Assembly: GCA_002733705.1 (NCBI GenBank)
Contig: NVWP01000001.1
Coordinates: forward strand, 18,639 to 82,638
Direction: 5' to 3'
Source: Henriciella sp.
GTDB lineage: Bacteria; Pseudomonadota; Alphaproteobacteria; Caulobacterales; Hyphomonadaceae
DNA: 64,000 nt
Part shown: in pieces, positions 12,413-34,876 of the stretch
How positions within the stretch are numbered: position 1 is the first letter of the stretch
Layout of the letters: each line of letters begins with the position of its first letter
Translations under genes and position numbers: made by a program
The notes under the pieces: model-generated
The model's input: the letters and a program-made list of their open reading frames with translations, nothing else
What the model was told of the DNA's origin: nothing
Databases searched by the model: none

Positions 12413-13801
12413 TTAGTCTTCGTCTGGCTCTATCGGCTCAGGGTCGAGGCCAAGCGCCGCCGCTGCCTCATCGTCATCAGGCTCACCGCGAAACGCCTCT
12501 TCCGGCGACAGCGGCTCAAAGCCGACCCGCGCGCGGATTTCCTCTTGAAGGAAAGCCAGCTCACCCGTTGGTGACAGCTTGGCGTTGATCTCTGCCATCT
12601 TCATGGCGAGGTCAAACTTCTCGGCCATGCTGGCCTCGGTCAGGTCTGCCCAATCCAGCGACCAGTCGCGCTCCGGCAGGATACCAAACGCTTCCAGTCG
12701 GTTCACCAGCGCCATGATGTTCGGGATGGTCTGCCCCTCGCGACGGGACATGCAGGTTTGCGCCCATTCGTTTGCGTCTTCAGTGCTAGCTCGCTCGCCA
12801 GTCTGAGAGCCGACAAGGATTTTCAACGGAATGCCGAACGAGGCCGCGAAAGATTGAAGTGCCACAGCCACGAAATGCTCAGGGATAGGCAGGCTCACCT
12901 GAAGCGACTTGGCCTGCATCCCTTGCAGCCAGAGAAGCGCGTCAAAGCCTTTTTGCCAGTCCTCAACCTGATCGCTCATCGTCTCGTGCAGGTCTTCTGC
13001 CGAGACGCCCATGCCCTTCGCCATATCAGCGAGGTCGATTTCCTTATCCGTCTCCAGTACAGGCGCCGCTTTGGCGTTCTTCCAGAAGCCCTCGCCACCT
13101 GCCCCGATGACCTTTTCCAGCGTCATCAGGTCATTAAAGCCCGGCTCAAGCATGGAGCGGTTGTGAACCGTGCCATCGCGTGACCAGATAATGACACGAT
13201 CAGGATGCAACTCGAACGATCGGTTCTTCTGGTTGGTGCTGCCCTTGTCGCTGTCCACCGCATATTCAGTGAAGTTGAACATGAGCGGCTGACCGTAGGT
13301 CTCCGACGTTTCGTCAGAGTCCCATTGACTGACCGTGAGCTGGCCTTCCCATGCGGGAATAACTTCGACCAGGCCCATCAGACCACCCGGCACGCGATCA
13401 ACCGGCTGGTTGAATTTCTTGCTGTCCGCCAGCCGCAGGATCAGGCCAGAATAACCACCGACCATTGACCGGAGGTCCGCCTCCTTGACCTTCTGCCACA
13501 AGCGCAGATCATCAAAGCGCTGACGTATATCGCCTTCGGCCCGGCTCTCTGCATCCTTTTCTTCGCCCTCCATAAGAAACGGAAAGCTCTGCCACGTCTT
13601 GCCTGCCGTCTTTTCAACTGCGGCGCATGCAATGCCGTTGCGGGCATACATCGCATGGAACTGGTCAAACGTTATCGTTTCGGGAAAGCCGAAGTCCCGG
13701 TAATGGTTGTGCTTCGCATTGGCGAAATAGCCCGGAAACATAGCCTGAAGCGAGCGCGCCCGATTGGCGATCATCGTCAGGGAACGCTGCGCGATGCCCA
13801 T
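12413..13801 (-). CDS. Portal protein, DUF1073-like
   Basis: 462 residues. The start overlaps the terminase stop as TAATG. Visible portal features are a helical N-terminal part with FDQFHAMYARNGIACAAVEKTAGK, the clip/stem region (LHPDRVIIWSRDG...LEPGFNDLMTLEKVIGAG), a long crown helix, and the downstream FGIPLKILVGSQTGERASTEDANEWAQ motif of DUF1073 portals. The C-terminus is acidic. It forms the dodecameric ring through which DNA is packaged. Some pipelines label this family as the anti-CBASS protein Acb1, which does not apply here. Confidence 0.88.
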   Translation of the reverse strand: MGIAQRSLTMIANRARSLQAMFPGYFANAKHNHYRDFGFPETITFDQFHAMYARNGIACAAVEKTAGKTWQSFPFLMEGEEKDAESRAEGDIRQRFDDLRLWQKVKEADLRSMVGGYSGLILRLADSKKFNQPVDRVPGGLMGLVEVIPAWEGQLTVSQWDSDETSETYGQPLMFNFTEYAVDSDKGSTNQKNRSFELHPDRVIIWSRDGTVHNRSMLEPGFNDLMTLEKVIGAGGEGFWKNAKAAPVLETDKEIDLADMAKGMGVSAEDLHETMSDQVEDWQKGFDALLWLQGMQAKSLQVSLPIPEHFVAVALQSFAASFGIPLKILVGSQTGERASTEDANEWAQTCMSRREGQTIPNIMALVNRLEAFGILPERDWSLDWADLTEASMAEKFDLAMKMAEINAKLSPTGELAFLQEEIRARVGFEPLSPEEAFRGEPDDDEAAAALGLDPEPIEPDED

Positions 13802-15111
13802 TAGCGATGCCTCTTGGACAGGATCATGCCTGCGCGCGGCGCCTGCTCACCCAGCATCAGATCGCTCAGCGCCCACACCGCAGCGTCCAGCCTGTCCGGC
13901 GACCCATCGCCCATATAGCCATCAGAGGTCATGCTCACCATTTGATCCTCCAACTCGCTCAATCCGCCGACATGGCGCACACGGCCCTGCTCATAGAGCG
14001 CGGCAACCGGCTCAGCCCTTACGGCCTTGCCCCTCGATGCGACCACTTCCTTATAGCTCACCGACTTATCTACGGTGCGGATGACGTGCTCGACCATCGC
14101 CCCGCCATAGTTACGCTCTGCAACGATCCGGTCGGCGCTGTATTTCCGGTACGCCTCGACAGCGCGCCGCCCCCAGCCCGCCGGGGAAAGATCACACGTC
14201 CAATCCGACAGGACATAGGCCAGTCCATCGACACCCAGACCGGCAACCACAATGCCGATGCTGTCCGCCGTCTCTTCATCACCGCCGCCCGCGCCTGATG
14301 GGTCAACCGCGACCACGACACGCCGCATGTCCGGCAGGTCGCCGCGCCACAGAGCGTCCTCGACCATTTGCCGGGTCCAGAGCGCGCCTGGTATGTCGTC
14401 CAGTATCTCGGCTTCAAGCTCTTGCCGGCCAAGCCGTGTGCCTTCGTACCTCGATAGAACCGCCTGCCGGAACGCCGGGGCGAGGTTCATCAGATTGTCG
14501 TGCGTCCGCCCCCGCGTGACGTGCGTTGTTTCAGAGCGCACCAGCTCCCGTATCAAGGGCAAAGGCCGGGGCGTCGTGGTTGCACAGACCTTCGGACGCT
14601 CGCCAAGGCGAAGCCCGAACATGGCCATGTCCCATGCTTCCTGCATGTACTTCCATGCCGCCAATTCATCGCACCAGAGTGCCGCGTGCTGGGGGCCGCG
14701 AAGACGATCCGGCTCATCTGCCGAATACAGCGTGGCGATCGTTCCGTTGTCCCACGTCAGCCGACGCTTGGACGGCTCATACACTGGACGGTCCCATGGC
14801 GGGGAAATTGCGAGGATTCCGCTTTCCCCCTCGACCATCACGTCTCGGGCGTCAGAGGCCGTTGGAGCAATCAGGCCAATCCGCCCAACCGTGTCCTTGA
14901 TCTGCCGGACCCATTCGGCACCAGTGCGGGTCTTGCCCCATCCACGGCCAGCGAGTGCCAGCCATACCGTCCAATCGCCCTCAGGCTCCAGCTGGTCGGG
15001 ACGTGCCCAGAAGCTCCAGCGGTAATTCAGCGCCGCCTTTTCGTCAGGCGTCAGATTCTTCAGGAGCGCCTTCGCCTGTATCGGCGTCAGCGTATTTGCT
15101 GAGCTTGGCAT
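13801..15111 (-). CDS. Terminase large subunit
   Basis: 436 residues. Walker A is AGRGWGKTR (about residue 54), Walker B LWCDELAAW with the catalytic Glu, coupling region CATTTPRPLPLI, and the nuclease begins with VVVAVDPSGAGGG, followed by a RIVAERNYGG segment and SPDRLDAAVWAL with the last acidic residue. It is the ATP-driven packaging motor with a C-terminal RNase H-fold nuclease. It overlaps the small subunit gene by 68 bases. Confidence 0.96.
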   Translation of the reverse strand: MPSSANTLTPIQAKALLKNLTPDEKAALNYRWSFWARPDQLEPEGDWTVWLALAGRGWGKTRTGAEWVRQIKDTVGRIGLIAPTASDARDVMVEGESGILAISPPWDRPVYEPSKRRLTWDNGTIATLYSADEPDRLRGPQHAALWCDELAAWKYMQEAWDMAMFGLRLGERPKVCATTTPRPLPLIRELVRSETTHVTRGRTHDNLMNLAPAFRQAVLSRYEGTRLGRQELEAEILDDIPGALWTRQMVEDALWRGDLPDMRRVVVAVDPSGAGGGDEETADSIGIVVAGLGVDGLAYVLSDWTCDLSPAGWGRRAVEAYRKYSADRIVAERNYGGAMVEHVIRTVDKSVSYKEVVASRGKAVRAEPVAALYEQGRVRHVGGLSELEDQMVSMTSDGYMGDGSPDRLDAAVWALSDLMLGEQAPRAGMILSKRHR

Positions 15112-15487
15112 CCAGGCTCCTTGCGGCGTCCTTTACCGTGACGCTAGCATCCGTCTCTGTGCGGGCGGTGGTCCAATTGTGATTGCTTGCCAGATCCATC
15201 GCGAGGCCGGGCGTATACTTCTCCCGATCAATGAGGCGTTCGGAACGGTCTTGCTCAATTCTCAGGCGCGCGCGTGTGGCGGCGTAAGAAAATTCTTTCT
15301 TCTGCTCGTAGTCCCAGAGGCTCTGACGCGAAGCAAAGCCCATATGGTAGGCCAGCCCCGCAACAGTCGGGATGCGCTTGTCAGTTTCGCACTGGTCGAA
15401 GTATTGATCGATGCAGTTTTCGAAGTGCAGGGGGTCACTGTATTTAGGGTGCCTGCCTGCTTTGGCGTCATCTTCAGCCATGATCAT
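15044..15487 (-). CDS. Terminase small subunit, P22 gp3-like
   Basis: 147 residues. The pattern HPKYSDPLHFENCIDQYFDQC, IPTVAGLAYHMGFASRQSLWDY and EFSYAATRARLRIEQDRSERLI is that of small terminases of the gp3 type, with an HTH that reads the packaging site. Two close starts (ATG ATC ATG) are possible. It lies directly before the large subunit, overlapping it. Confidence 0.87.
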   Translation of the reverse strand: MIMAEDDAKAGRHPKYSDPLHFENCIDQYFDQCETDKRIPTVAGLAYHMGFASRQSLWDYEQKKEFSYAATRARLRIEQDRSERLIDREKYTPGLAMDLASNHNWTTARTETDASVTVKDAARSLDAKLSKYADADTGEGAPEESDA

Positions 15488-15562
15488 TATCGAGAAACGC
15501 TAAGGTTTCGCCCTTTGGTGCAGGTTTCGGTTTATCTGGCCGGTGGGACATGCAGCCACAGG

Positions 15563-15685
15563 TTAATCCCGCGCCTCTTCAGCCAGCGCTTCCCGCGCTT
15601 TCACGGCCTCGCGGTCAGCGGCCAGTTCGTGCTCTGTGAGGCCGTACCGGTTGGTGTCGGCTTGGTGTTCATGGTCAGTGAGCAT
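15563..15685 (-). CDS. Short ORF under the structured leader (40 aa)
   Basis: MLTDHEHQADTNRYGL..., 40 residues, acidic and helical. GAAAGGA lies just before the chosen ATG; an in-frame ATG 18 bases further up would place that site inside the gene. It lies between the structured RNA candidate and the terminase genes. In P1/P4-type antisense control systems a small gene of this kind sits directly under the RNA and is its translational target. That parallel is hypothesis here. Protein function unknown. Confidence 0.5.
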   Translation of the reverse strand: MLTDHEHQADTNRYGLTEHELAADREAVKAREALAEEARD

Positions 15686-15779
15686 GGCGCTTCCTTTCGA
15701 CATGAGTAATCCCCGCCGCGAGCTTGCTCGGGACGCTGGTGTATGGCTCTGGGCTTATGGGTGAGTGTTCCGGTTAGGG

Positions 15780-15965
15780 CCGGACGGGGAAAGGGTATCT
15801 GCGGGCCGCCGATCCTCGCGGCTCACGTGACGGTGCGCATGGTTCCCGTAGAACGCGCCCTTTTACTGGCATACGGGCATCACGCCGCAGAATCACAAAG
15901 GGGAGCGCGTTAGCCGCAACTCCCCTTATTCCTTTTGCTGGCTTCTCACGCTTCGCGTGACCTGT
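15780..15965 (-). ncRNA. Structured RNA candidate in the late-operon leader (C4/CI-type antisense RNA?)
   Basis: The minus strand folds strongly. AAGGGGAG / CTCCCCTT flank a 14-base loop (15897-15927). GCGC-GTTC / GAAC-GCGC forms a tight hairpin at 15835-15858. GCGGC-GTGA and TCAC...GCCGC close it from outside (15880-15888 with 15818-15830). TCACGCTTCGCGTGA (15946-15960) makes a hairpin just after the upstream stop codon. An 8-base stretch (15815-15822) is complementary to 15715-15722, about 20 bases before the Shine-Dalgarno of the next short ORF. From memory, this nucleotide stretch recurs in unrelated prophages, near C4/CI RNAs; that recollection is unverified. Confidence 0.45.
15897..15927 (-). 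terminator. Hairpin downstream of the basic late-region protein
   Basis: An 8-bp perfect stem of GGGGAG/CTCCCC type without a strong T-run; TTTGTG follows on the minus strand. It may be a terminator or the 5' arm of the structured RNA. It would be a natural target for an antiterminator. Confidence 0.4.
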
Positions 15966-16552
15966 CAAGCGGCCTCGCCAAATTTCTGCGTGAACCTCTC
16001 TGGCCAGAAGTGCCGGGCAAGGCGTCTGGCCGGATGCTGCAGGATCTCGCAGGTGTGAGGCGTGAAATACCGGCCCCATTCTGCCACCACCATCTGCAGC
16101 CGCTCGCGCTCGGCTATCCTGCACCCGACAAGGCAATCTTCCATCGCGCCATGAATGCCCTTCAATCGGATCAGGGCTTCCTCTGTAGTGATCTTTTCAC
16201 CTCTACGGGGCTGCAGGGTGCCGAGAATGTCCGGCGCCTCTCTAGGAGCCTGTATGCTCGCCCTGTAGGCTTCCGTGATCTGGCGATAGCGGTGCAGGGC
16301 TTCGTGTTGATCATCGGTGAGCAGACCCTGTGTCTTCGCGACCAGCAGCGGATCATCGGGCGTGCCGGATGATCCTTTGAGAAGATCGAGGCGAAGCTGT
16401 TGCGCACGGCTGGGCTTCTGCTTGCGGGCGGCGATGTTGCCCGGCTTGGACTTCACCCGGCCGGACGGCTCACGCTCGCGAGGGCCGCTCACCTGGAACT
16501 CTGGACGGAGCTTCTGCTTACGCTTCCTGCGTGACTGTTTCGTTCTTGCCAT
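15965..16552 (-). CDS. Basic phage protein upstream of the terminase module (unknown; possible late regulator)
   Basis: 195 residues. The first 50 are very basic (MARTKQSRRKRKQKLRPEF...), then a helical middle (LTDDQHEALHRYRQITEAYR) and a C-terminal EWGRYFTPHTCEILQHPARRLARHFW. No known domain is recognised. Its place, last gene before the leader of the late operon and on the same strand, matches that of late-gene antiterminators or activators. The Arg/Lys-rich N-terminus could bind RNA. This is inference from position and composition. Confidence 0.55.
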   Translation of the reverse strand: MARTKQSRRKRKQKLRPEFQVSGPREREPSGRVKSKPGNIAARKQKPSRAQQLRLDLLKGSSGTPDDPLLVAKTQGLLTDDQHEALHRYRQITEAYRASIQAPREAPDILGTLQPRRGEKITTEEALIRLKGIHGAMEDCLVGCRIAERERLQMVVAEWGRYFTPHTCEILQHPARRLARHFWPERFTQKFGEAA

Positions 16553-26342: not shown

Positions 26343-26905
26343 TGATCAGCCTCGATATCCTCAACCGCTTTTCCGGTACCGTCCAATTCACCGCAGAGAT
26401 TGATTGCGATGAGAATGCCAGCCGCAGCATCAAGATCGGCCTTGCCGTAAAGTGGGCCATCAAGACAGGCGCGGACCTCGGAGGCGCGTACCTCGGAGGC
26501 GCGTACCTCGGAGGCGCGTACCTCGGAGGCGCGTACCTCGGAGGCGCGGACCTCAGAGGCGCGTACCTCAGAGGCGCGGACCTCAGAGGCGCGTACCTCG
26601 GAGGCGCGGACCTCAGAGGCGCGTACCTCGGAGGCGGCGTCAAGATCAAGTCGCTACTAGCCAGCGCCGTTCGCCTCAACGACCAGTACCAGTTCTTTCT
26701 CTGGGAAACCGAGTGCGGCCACGTCATCACGGCGGGCTGTCGCCAGATGACGATTGCGGACTACCGCGCGCACATCGCGGCGGAATACCCCGGCGCAGCC
26801 AAGGGCGACGAGACAAGCGACATTCTCGACTATTTCGAGGCACGGCTGAAGCGCACCGACCCCGCCCGTGCCGTGCGGGCCGAACTCCGGAAGGGGGTGG
26901 CGTGA
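26342..26905 (+). CDS. Pentapeptide-repeat protein
   Basis: 187 residues. The N-terminal strands (MISLDILNRFSGTVQFTAEI) lead to eleven uninterrupted A(D/Y)L(G/R)G units from about residue 44 to 98, a right-handed quadrilateral beta-helix. The C-terminal domain (QYQFFLWETECGHVITAG, IADYRAHIAAEYPG) is a region often seen after pentapeptide repeats in phage proteins. Some pentapeptide proteins mimic DNA and bind gyrase, but the function here is unknown. It overlaps both neighbours. Confidence 0.8.
   Translation: MISLDILNRFSGTVQFTAEIDCDENASRSIKIGLAVKWAIKTGADLGGAYLGGAYLGGAYLGGAYLGGADLRGAYLRGADLRGAYLGGADLRGAYLGGGVKIKSLLASAVRLNDQYQFFLWETECGHVITAGCRQMTIADYRAHIAAEYPGAAKGDETSDILDYFEARLKRTDPARAVRAELRKGVA
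26471..26635 (+). repeat. 15-bp tandem repeat, 11 copies (pentapeptide coding)
   Basis: Eleven in-register 15-bp units, GCGTACCTCGGAGGC and close variants (GAC for TAC, AGA for GGA). Units 2-5 are identical, which points to recent expansion by slippage or recombination. Copy number changes would keep the frame. Confidence 0.95.
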
Positions 26906-33504: not shown

Positions 33505-33770
33505 TGACCGCGCGCTCTGCCTCTGCACGTTGGCCGCGAGCCCTTCGCGCCCCATTGGCGGCGCAGTACGTTGGCGCGTCCGAATCCACATTCAGGGAAT
33601 GGGTGAGCCGGGGCCTTATGCCTACGCCTCATCGCCCGCCTGATCCGCGCTCCAACATGGTCGTGTGGTTCATCGAAGAGCTTGATGATTACCTCGACCG
33701 CTTCACGAAAGACGGAGCGCCGGCCAATGACGACTGGAAAGATGACAAGGGGGAACCCGTCGCGCTATGA
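33504..33770 (+). CDS. Excisionase / AlpA-like HTH protein
   Basis: 88 residues. APLAAQYVGASESTFREWVSRGLMPTPHRPPDPRSNMVVWFIEELDDYL, read in parts (QYVGASESTFREWVSRGLMP; VVWFIEELDDYLDRF), is the MerR-like winged helix of AlpA/Xis proteins. It ends ATGA into the integrase, so the two are made together. It should steer the integrase towards excision, or control its expression. Confidence 0.75.
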   Translation: MTARSASARWPRALRAPLAAQYVGASESTFREWVSRGLMPTPHRPPDPRSNMVVWFIEELDDYLDRFTKDGAPANDDWKDDKGEPVAL

Positions 33771-34876
33771 CCGAAGGTATGGCGAAGATCCGGTATAACT
33801 ACCTTGTGAGGGACGTGACCCGCCACGGGCAAGTGCGCTGGTATGTCCGCAGGCCGGGTCAGAACAAAGTGCGCCTCAAGCTGACACCAGAAGACGAGGG
33901 CTTCACGAAGGAATACAAGGACGCCCTGAAAACCAAGAGCGCGAAGCCGGGCACTATTCGGGTGCAGCCCTATTCGCTCGGCTGGCTCATCAACCAGTAT
34001 TTCGCCAGCGCGCACTTTGCCGGGCTCGCCAAGGCCACGCAGGTGCAGCAGCGATCGATCCTCGGACGGGTCGCCCGCGAGAATGGCGACAAGGACGCCC
34101 GCACGCTCACCAGCGCCGCCGTTAAGGCTGGACGCGACAAGAGGGCCCAGACCCCCGGCGCCGCAAACAATTTCCTGAAATCGGTGAAGGCGCTCTATGT
34201 CTGGGGCATTGAGGCCGGACATGTGAAGCAGAACCCGGCGATAGGCGTGAAGCGCGCCAAGATGGGCAAGAGCACGTGGCTCCCGTGGACGCCAGAGCAG
34301 CGCGAACAGTTCTGCCGGGCCCACCCTATCGGGACCATGCCGCGCCTCGTCTATGCGCTCGCCTATGAGGCCGCGTTCCGCCGTTCCGACATCGTGACAG
34401 TCGGCAGGCAGCACATCAAAGACGGCTTCATTCTCAAGACGCAGGAGAAAACTGACGAGCCCGTATGGGTGCCAATCTCACCAGAGCTCCAAGCGTGCAT
34501 CGACGCTATGCCGAAGACGGGCCTGCACCTCGTCACCACCGCCTATGGCAAACCGTTCAGCGTGAAGGGGATTGGCGGGGCCATGCAACGCTGGCTGAAG
34601 CAGGCCGGGCTAGAGAAGGCCGGACTATCTCTGCACGGGCTCAGGAAGGCCGCTGGCGCCGATATGGCGGAAGGCGGGGCGACACAGGAAGAGATTGCCG
34701 CCGCCCTCGGACACAGCGGCACGAAGACCGCAAGCATCTACACCAAATCGGCTGACAAGAAACGCCTCGCACGGCAGGCTCAAGCGAAGCGGCAGGGAAC
34801 ATCTGCAACACAAAGTGTCCCACCTGAATCGTCCCACTCGGGGCCGGTGGGACAAAAGCGGAGAAAATCGCAATGA
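33767..34876 (+). CDS. Tyrosine recombinase / phage integrase
   Basis: 369 residues. The N-terminal arm domain (YLVRDVTRHGQVRWYVRRPGQ) and a SAM-like core-binding domain lead to the catalytic domain. The Arg is in YEAAFRRSDIVTV, the H-x-x-R in LHGLRKAAGA, the second His in ALGHSGTKT and the nucleophile in ASIYTKSA. The C-terminal 50 residues are basic and not conserved. It lies 22 bp from the tRNA 3' end, in the standard place of a tRNA-targeting integrase. Confidence 0.95.
   Translation: MTEGMAKIRYNYLVRDVTRHGQVRWYVRRPGQNKVRLKLTPEDEGFTKEYKDALKTKSAKPGTIRVQPYSLGWLINQYFASAHFAGLAKATQVQQRSILGRVARENGDKDARTLTSAAVKAGRDKRAQTPGAANNFLKSVKALYVWGIEAGHVKQNPAIGVKRAKMGKSTWLPWTPEQREQFCRAHPIGTMPRLVYALAYEAAFRRSDIVTVGRQHIKDGFILKTQEKTDEPVWVPISPELQACIDAMPKTGLHLVTTAYGKPFSVKGIGGAMQRWLKQAGLEKAGLSLHGLRKAAGADMAEGGATQEEIAAALGHSGTKTASIYTKSADKKRLARQAQAKRQGTSATQSVPPESSHSGPVGQKRRKSQ

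Follow-up and report, generated by a model that had tools for sequence, protein, structure and literature searches.

The stretch of DNA analysed here (hereafter the window, 64,000 nucleotides in length) belongs to a Henriciella-like host, and within it an integrase gene (33767-34876) adjoins a tRNA-Met gene. A block of genes on the minus strand runs from replication genes (a DnaB-like helicase and a replication initiator) through a DUF4942/methyltransferase gene to the gene for a 195-aa protein (15965-16552), an open reading frame (ORF) of 46 codons (15563-15703) and the genes for the terminase small subunit (TerS, 15044-15487), the terminase large subunit (TerL, 13801-15111) and the portal protein (12413-13801). 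TerS was assigned to GP3_package (Pfam PF16677, E 4.3e-16; phrog_606), TerL to Terminase_6N (Pfam, E 2.3e-23) and the portal protein to phrog_146 (E 4.2e-87). The region under study, which separates the 195-aa gene from the late genes, is the late-operon leader of a prophage. An earlier note on this DNA had called it gene-free on the minus strand, and this was borne out: the interval from the stop codon of the 195-aa gene, at 15965, to the 46-codon ORF, the putative first gene of the late transcript, holds no ORF that we judged to be a gene. The ORFs predicted in between, such as 15774-16136, run in another frame through the 195-aa gene or lie on the opposite strand. Apparently the same phage is present in a metagenome viral contig (IMGVR_UViG_3300006654_000663, L003), whose TerS and 195-aa protein show 100% identity to those of the window. 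Elsewhere in the window (26467-26636), a 15-bp unit is repeated 11.3 times (92% match) and reads in frame as arginine-proline-rich repeats.

The leader begins with a series of promoter- and terminator-like elements, all on the minus strand. A -35-like TTGACA (15963-15968) overlaps the stop codon of the 195-aa gene (15967-15965), and TTGAC[AG] recurs in relatives. It is followed after 14 nt by a weak -10-like element, TGAGAA (15943-15948), at the same spacing as in a prophage of a second genome of the genus (G008); the counterpart in genomes G018 and G019 is TAGAGAA. The -35/-10 region of the window is filled by a perfect inverted repeat, TCACGC-GAA-GCGTGA (15946-15960), a possible loading site, whose perfect 6-bp arms were equalled in 1 of 5000 shuffles; no significant inverted repeat was found in the -35/-10 spacers of five other loci tested. 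Next comes a block (15888-15933) comprising the predicted start of the late transcript and a bulged 12-bp hairpin (15898-15927), terminator-like, with arms AAGGGGAG and CTCCCCTT, loop GCUAA and a short T tract (15897-15899) of three bases in the window, four in G008 and four to five in other loci. The 42 nt of the AAGGGGAG hairpin fold at -20.1 kcal/mol (z -3.43), and two of 200 dinucleotide shuffles fold as well; equally strong folds occur in 258 of 21,320 sampled 42-nt stretches of the window. A consensus scan called neither a promoter nor a terminator at this unit, which has a poor -10 and, in the window alone, a T tract of only three bases; by the stated limits of the scan the bulged stem would be missed.

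The earlier note had proposed that several nested hairpins in this leader form a C4/CI-type antisense RNA. The AAGGGGAG/CTCCCCTT hairpin is indeed present, at 15927-15898 (given as 15897-15927 in that note), as is GCGC-GTTC/GAAC-GCGC, and only the former folds better than shuffled sequence. The latter (15835-15858) is at chance (z -1.3, 23 of 200 shuffles as good), and so are the 15780-15890 domain (z +0.7, 147/200), the leader below the hairpin (z +1.24, 180/200) and the 281-nt leader as a whole (z -0.62, 51/200). Two 8-base segments complementary to each other, one near the short ORF, lie where they had been described, a position in the leader that would suit such an RNA; with one pair observed and at least one found in 192 of 500 shuffles, this complementarity is what chance would give, and the segments fall outside the part of the leader shared with G008. 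No match to C4 (RF01695, the accession given in the earlier note) was obtained in Rfam at the gathering score over the 64 kb or up to E 5 over 15450-16050, where the sole row falls below the leader; C4 is likewise absent from 15760-15900 up to E 10. As regards P4-type CI RNA, the leader was matched by no Rfam family at the first two settings. Both P1 C4 and P4 CI share with the window a leader RNA linked to termination; they differ in that the window leader has no covariance-model match and no pairing beyond chance. We therefore abandon the antisense reading as highly improbable. The suggestion that terminase and head genes are under the control of this late-operon leader is supported as probable, and the control would act through transcription termination.

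When 398 genomes of the order were searched with a profile (A3) built from the 195-aa protein and its relatives, seven gave a match. Six of these are the window's genome (G000), G008, G018, G019, G116 and G115; the seventh, G155, is a weak match (E 2.9e-4) and was left out of the comparison of layouts. The gene in viral contig L029 is 97% identical to its G115 counterpart. The proteins of G008 and G018 are linked at BLASTP level (E 8e-6), and it is through the N-terminal half that the pair formed by the window and G008 is connected with the G116 group (hhalign 87%, E 3.9e-6; BLASTP E 0.002). A match in G309 was dropped because the opposite strand carries an ORF of 577 aa at that place.

The hairpin block itself has been found in very few places. 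It is identical in the window and in G008 but for one T over 47 bp. Twenty-base patterns of the block occur in one viral contig, that of the same phage, and in one genome record, the Henriciella prophage of G008; a search for the 26-base hairpin in 105 genomes of the family, allowing up to three mismatches, found it in two, again the window's genome and G008. The claim that this stretch recurs in unrelated prophages thus holds for the hairpin block in one other prophage, G008, whose terminases are unrelated; the FVILRRDARMPVKGR stretch named in that claim was not refound. A mobile and widely shared RNA is not what we see: besides the G008 prophage, the window's own genome and the same phage in the viral contig, the BLAST rows are at chance level, and among 50,697 phage records there were no matches beyond two of 36 and 21 bases, as expected by chance. 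In two related phage contigs (L016, L017) the pattern GGGGAG..CTCCCCTTT..GTGATTC was matched with another loop and beside unrelated genes, and we regard these matches as terminators that fit by chance. In viral contigs, 47 stretches were matched by the arms TCTGCGGC..GCCCGCAGAT, among which only that of L003 is this leader; the other 46 were judged unrelated by eye.

The layout recurs where the sequence does not. The loci examined for the 195-aa gene and its relatives number seven (window, G008, G018, G019, G116, G115 and viral contig L029) and represent about three lineages; all of them show TTGAC[AG], then after 41-54 nt a hairpin of 28-30 nt, then three to five T. The seven hairpins fold at -17.8 to -21.9 kcal/mol with a small bulge in each predicted structure; in G018, G019, G116 and G115 their sequences differ while stem and T tract stay. 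A scan of 72 of 93 other loci (1.22 Mb of strand), a control that is circular in its limits since these were set after seeing the seven loci, gave three matches, each of them a copy of the site in G008 or in the window; of the 21 loci not scanned, 18 overlap loci that were. The layout is rare. It is also no general mark of this type of TerS, whose relatives were found in 18 viral loci, in 5 of 398 genomes of the order and in 2 of 385 genomes of the class (window, G690): among the 18 viral loci it is present in two, L029 and L023 (the same phage), and the remaining 16, some of them with little upstream DNA, gave no match. In G019, two identical copies of a 3.5 kb prophage stretch lie on different contigs (L097, C13; L099, C36).

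A hairpin with a T tract soon after a stop codon could simply be the ordinary terminator of the upstream operon, with late transcription arising elsewhere and the 46/47 identity reflecting a recent exchange between Henriciella prophages. The weak -10, the missing promoter call and the restriction of the block to two genomes fit such a reading. Against it, TTGAC lies 41-54 nt upstream of the hairpin in seven of seven loci, with a common spacer/-10 pattern, and over 60 kb around the G008 prophage no other stretch is as similar to the window as the block, the other four BLASTN matches being 70-89% identical. In addition, the 4-nt overlap between the end of the 195-aa gene and TTGAC is particular to the window: TTGAC lies 282-1,265 nt below the protein gene in the five other loci measured, and about 1.2 kb below it in L029, so the unit is not merely the end of that gene. 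In G008 (L002:821-1438), a 205-aa ORF with no convincing family match lies between the candidate antiterminator gene and the promoter. We regard the ordinary-terminator reading as rather unlikely.

We then asked with which gene the leader travels. The window and G018 have the most similar terminases (TerL 84% and TerS 66% identical) and do not share the hairpin sequence. The window and G008, by contrast, share the 195-aa protein (48% identity) and the 46/47 bp block, and have unrelated terminases. Protein matches between these two at E <= 1e-5 comprise the 195-aa protein and the products of a few genes on its right side, and neither terminase nor portal is among them. Below the block, their leaders give no further BLASTN match. 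A short ORF with a start similar to that of the 46-codon ORF follows the block in G008. Between G018 and G019, identity is 81% for the protein, 74% for the leader, 52% for the portal and, over 227 aa, 92% for one more head gene, with no TerS or TerL match, which indicates that there the terminase alone was exchanged. Among 15 pairs of leaders, the three highest identities belong to window-G008 (78.7%), G018-G019 (74.0%) and G116-G115 (85.9%), which are the closest proteins of the 195-aa family within each lineage; elsewhere identity is 51.0-63.2%. Window-G018, despite the most similar terminases, stands at 61.0%, and shuffles reach 43-47%. Leader similarity therefore tracks the 195-aa protein and not the terminase, so that the leader belongs with the protein. 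This argues for a target of that protein and against a DNA packaging site (cos or pac), a reading suggested by the position before terS, the inverted repeat and the strict conservation. A packaging site is also hard to reconcile with a block shared with a phage of unrelated terminase and missing from G018 despite the 84% identity of TerL, and we consider it very improbable. The contrasts among the window, G008, G018 and G019 indicate that the switch is exchanged independently of the terminase genes.

Below the hairpin, the remaining leader (15798-15891) is bounded by the arms TCTGCGG (15891-15885) and CCGCAGA (15804-15798). These outer arms, with a variable interior, are also present in G018 (L019), G019 (L099) and G116 (L020); they were not found in G008 (L002) or L029, and the G115 stretch examined ends before the second arm. 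The late leader of G018 contains a full-length DUF3800-IX RNA (RF02968; L019:676-746, plus strand; 44.7 bits, gathering score 36.8, E 9.1e-7) between the promoter-proximal hairpin and terS, so a structured RNA is likely in that slot in a relative. In the window itself, Rfam gave two noise rows only for 15760-15900 up to E 10, that is, no recognisable structured RNA in this slot. A tRNA-Met (anticodon CAT) lies inside the late leader, 3' of the hairpin, in three related phages (L020:803-879, L096:3388-3464 and L029:2785-2861).

The 195-aa protein is our candidate antiterminator ("Q-like"), its relatives lying upstream of the promoter-hairpin layout in the seven loci. The libraries that we searched offer no family of known function for it. 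In Pfam and NCBIfam the window protein had no row at all up to E 10, and no antiterminator family was found in Pfam for the window, G008, G018 and G116 members or in NCBIfam for those of the window and G008; PHROGs returned only unnamed families at E about 0.1 and no antiterminator. A sub-threshold HEPN row was obtained in Pfam for the G018 protein (E 0.046). The N-terminus is very basic, MARTKQSRRKRKQK, with 18 K/R in the first 50 residues of the window protein and 15-18 across six family members. AlphaFold modelling of the window protein from two sequences (pLDDT 48) was too poor to use; the G116 member, modelled from six sequences, reached a mean pLDDT of 67.9, with residues 61-90 and 121-177 well predicted and helical. 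None of the 27 matches of this model in a PDB fold search had E <= 0.001. Of 94 matches in BFVD (Foldseek), the three that reach E 0.001 are uncharacterised phage proteins; the best 50 of the 94 include two phage DUF6456 rows, with probabilities of 1.00 (E 4e-3) and 0.80 (E 0.55), and ECF and sigma-70 region 4 proteins are found among the weaker rows.

DUF6456 is of interest here through GafZ of Caulobacter, which is reported to be an antiterminator with a predicted sigma-like helix-turn-helix that binds a palindrome between -35 and -10 and to resemble the C-terminal part of GafA (PMC11150451); GafA relatives are annotated as DUF6456 (PMC9638019; PMC9765227). Direct searches did not connect the families: Pfam DUF6456 (PF20057) gave no hmmscan row up to E 10 for the window, G008, G018 and G116 proteins, and a six-frame search through the 105 genomes of the family found DUF6456 in 17, which do not include G000, G008, G018, G019, G116 or G115. 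An hhalign comparison of six members with 16 DUF6456 proteins gave a probability of 13.6%, E 0.002 and a score of 25.9, which none of 100 column shuffles reached (best 19.85); subsets of four and two members do not stand out. The DUF6456 profile was made from 16 of 18 matches in this bacterial family, without L116, which stops inside, and L117, which is below the cut-off. The structural link of the 195-aa family to DUF6456/GafZ, which comes from predicted models, is only suggestive and serves as a lead. In G003 (L100), a genome of the same genus, a DUF6456 gene follows an apparent ORF of DnaA-type helix-turn-helix, resembling by eye the gafY-gafZ pair.

Taken from the DNA alone, the order of the parts, the layout in seven loci and the pairing of the leader with the protein and not with the terminase are what the comparisons establish. 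The unit probably serves the prophage as its switch for late genes: a late promoter and, close behind it, a terminator that would be opened by an antiterminator encoded upstream. The promoter (TTGACA at 15968) would start RNA just downstream of the 195-aa gene, and about 45 nt past the predicted start the transcript would form the intrinsic-terminator hairpin and stop. Once made, the 195-aa protein may load on RNA polymerase at or near the promoter, and the modified polymerase would pass the hairpin and later terminators, so that the terminase, portal and head genes are transcribed. Antitermination is suggested by the gene before the promoter, by the spacing, by terminases that were exchanged while the switch before them was conserved, and by a prophage of G050, in which a NusG paralogue (L092:3169-3720) lies about 1 kb upstream of a GP3-type TerS. 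The paralogue matches phrog_6386 (transcription antiterminator, E 2e-11) and Pfam NusG (E 6.5e-11); the layout scan of the G050 locus found no copy of the layout.

We read the switch as one that may work like that of lambda Q or Caulobacter GafZ. The likeness to lambda pR'-tR' and Q lies in a candidate antiterminator gene just upstream of a late promoter and terminator, with the late genes beyond; the 195-aa protein differs in having no sequence match to a Q family. In lambda, tR' is farther from the promoter than hairpins of the window type, which start 41-54 nt after the -35. GafZ, in turn, is an alphaproteobacterial antiterminator of phage-type genes, those of a gene transfer agent (GTA) cluster, and the inverted repeat of the window promoter sits between -35 and -10 as the GafZ-binding element ZBE does (PMC11150451). 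In contrast, the inverted repeat of the window is not conserved among relatives, and terGTA follows the first gene (PMC11150451) whereas the window hairpin is at the predicted 5' end of the RNA.

The identity of the loop and flanks between the window and G008 exceeds what a plain terminator needs, which points either to a recent exchange or to a sequence-specific reading of the RNA, or of the DNA at the start site. The hairpin could then be a nascent-RNA signal like put or nut/boxB, read by an arginine-rich tail or acting on the polymerase itself. The block is kept through loop and flanks while the promoter spacer and the remaining leader have diverged, a small bulge recurs in each of the seven predicted hairpins, and the 18 K/R within the 50 N-terminal residues would suit an RNA-binding tail; the loop GCUAA also resembles the GNRA-like pentaloop of P22 boxB. 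Yet this subtype consists of two sequences only, the hairpins of the G018/G116 subtypes vary and end in T4-5 like terminators, no boxA was seen by eye, and a recent exchange of a short segment would look alike. HK022 put and the N-nut systems of lambda and P22 likewise combine a fixed hairpin at the transcript start with an arginine-rich protein tail; the window differs in that no boxA was seen, that a T tract follows the hairpin and that late genes, not early ones, lie beyond. Antitermination signalled by the RNA is a doubtful reading. Equally tentative is the broader proposal of a new late-antiterminator family of Hyphomonadaceae, in which the arginine-rich tail would read the hairpin, the 47-nt RNA would combine a terminator with the signal that cancels it, and the cassette would be placed before unrelated terminases. 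Our verdict, drawn from sequence comparison, favours a switch of what would be a known kind, whose protein is unrecognised and whose hairpin is unusually fixed.

To our knowledge, late-gene control of temperate phages outside enterobacteria is poorly known. In one open-access library, the only study of alphaproteobacterial antitermination that we recognised concerns a gene transfer agent, and antitermination, late promoter, prophage and Alphaproteobacteria were not found together. The locus offers a small testable unit of one gene and about 90 bp. Should the 195-aa protein prove to be an antiterminator, a further family, with no recognised relatives, would be added, and it may show the origin of GafZ-type regulators.
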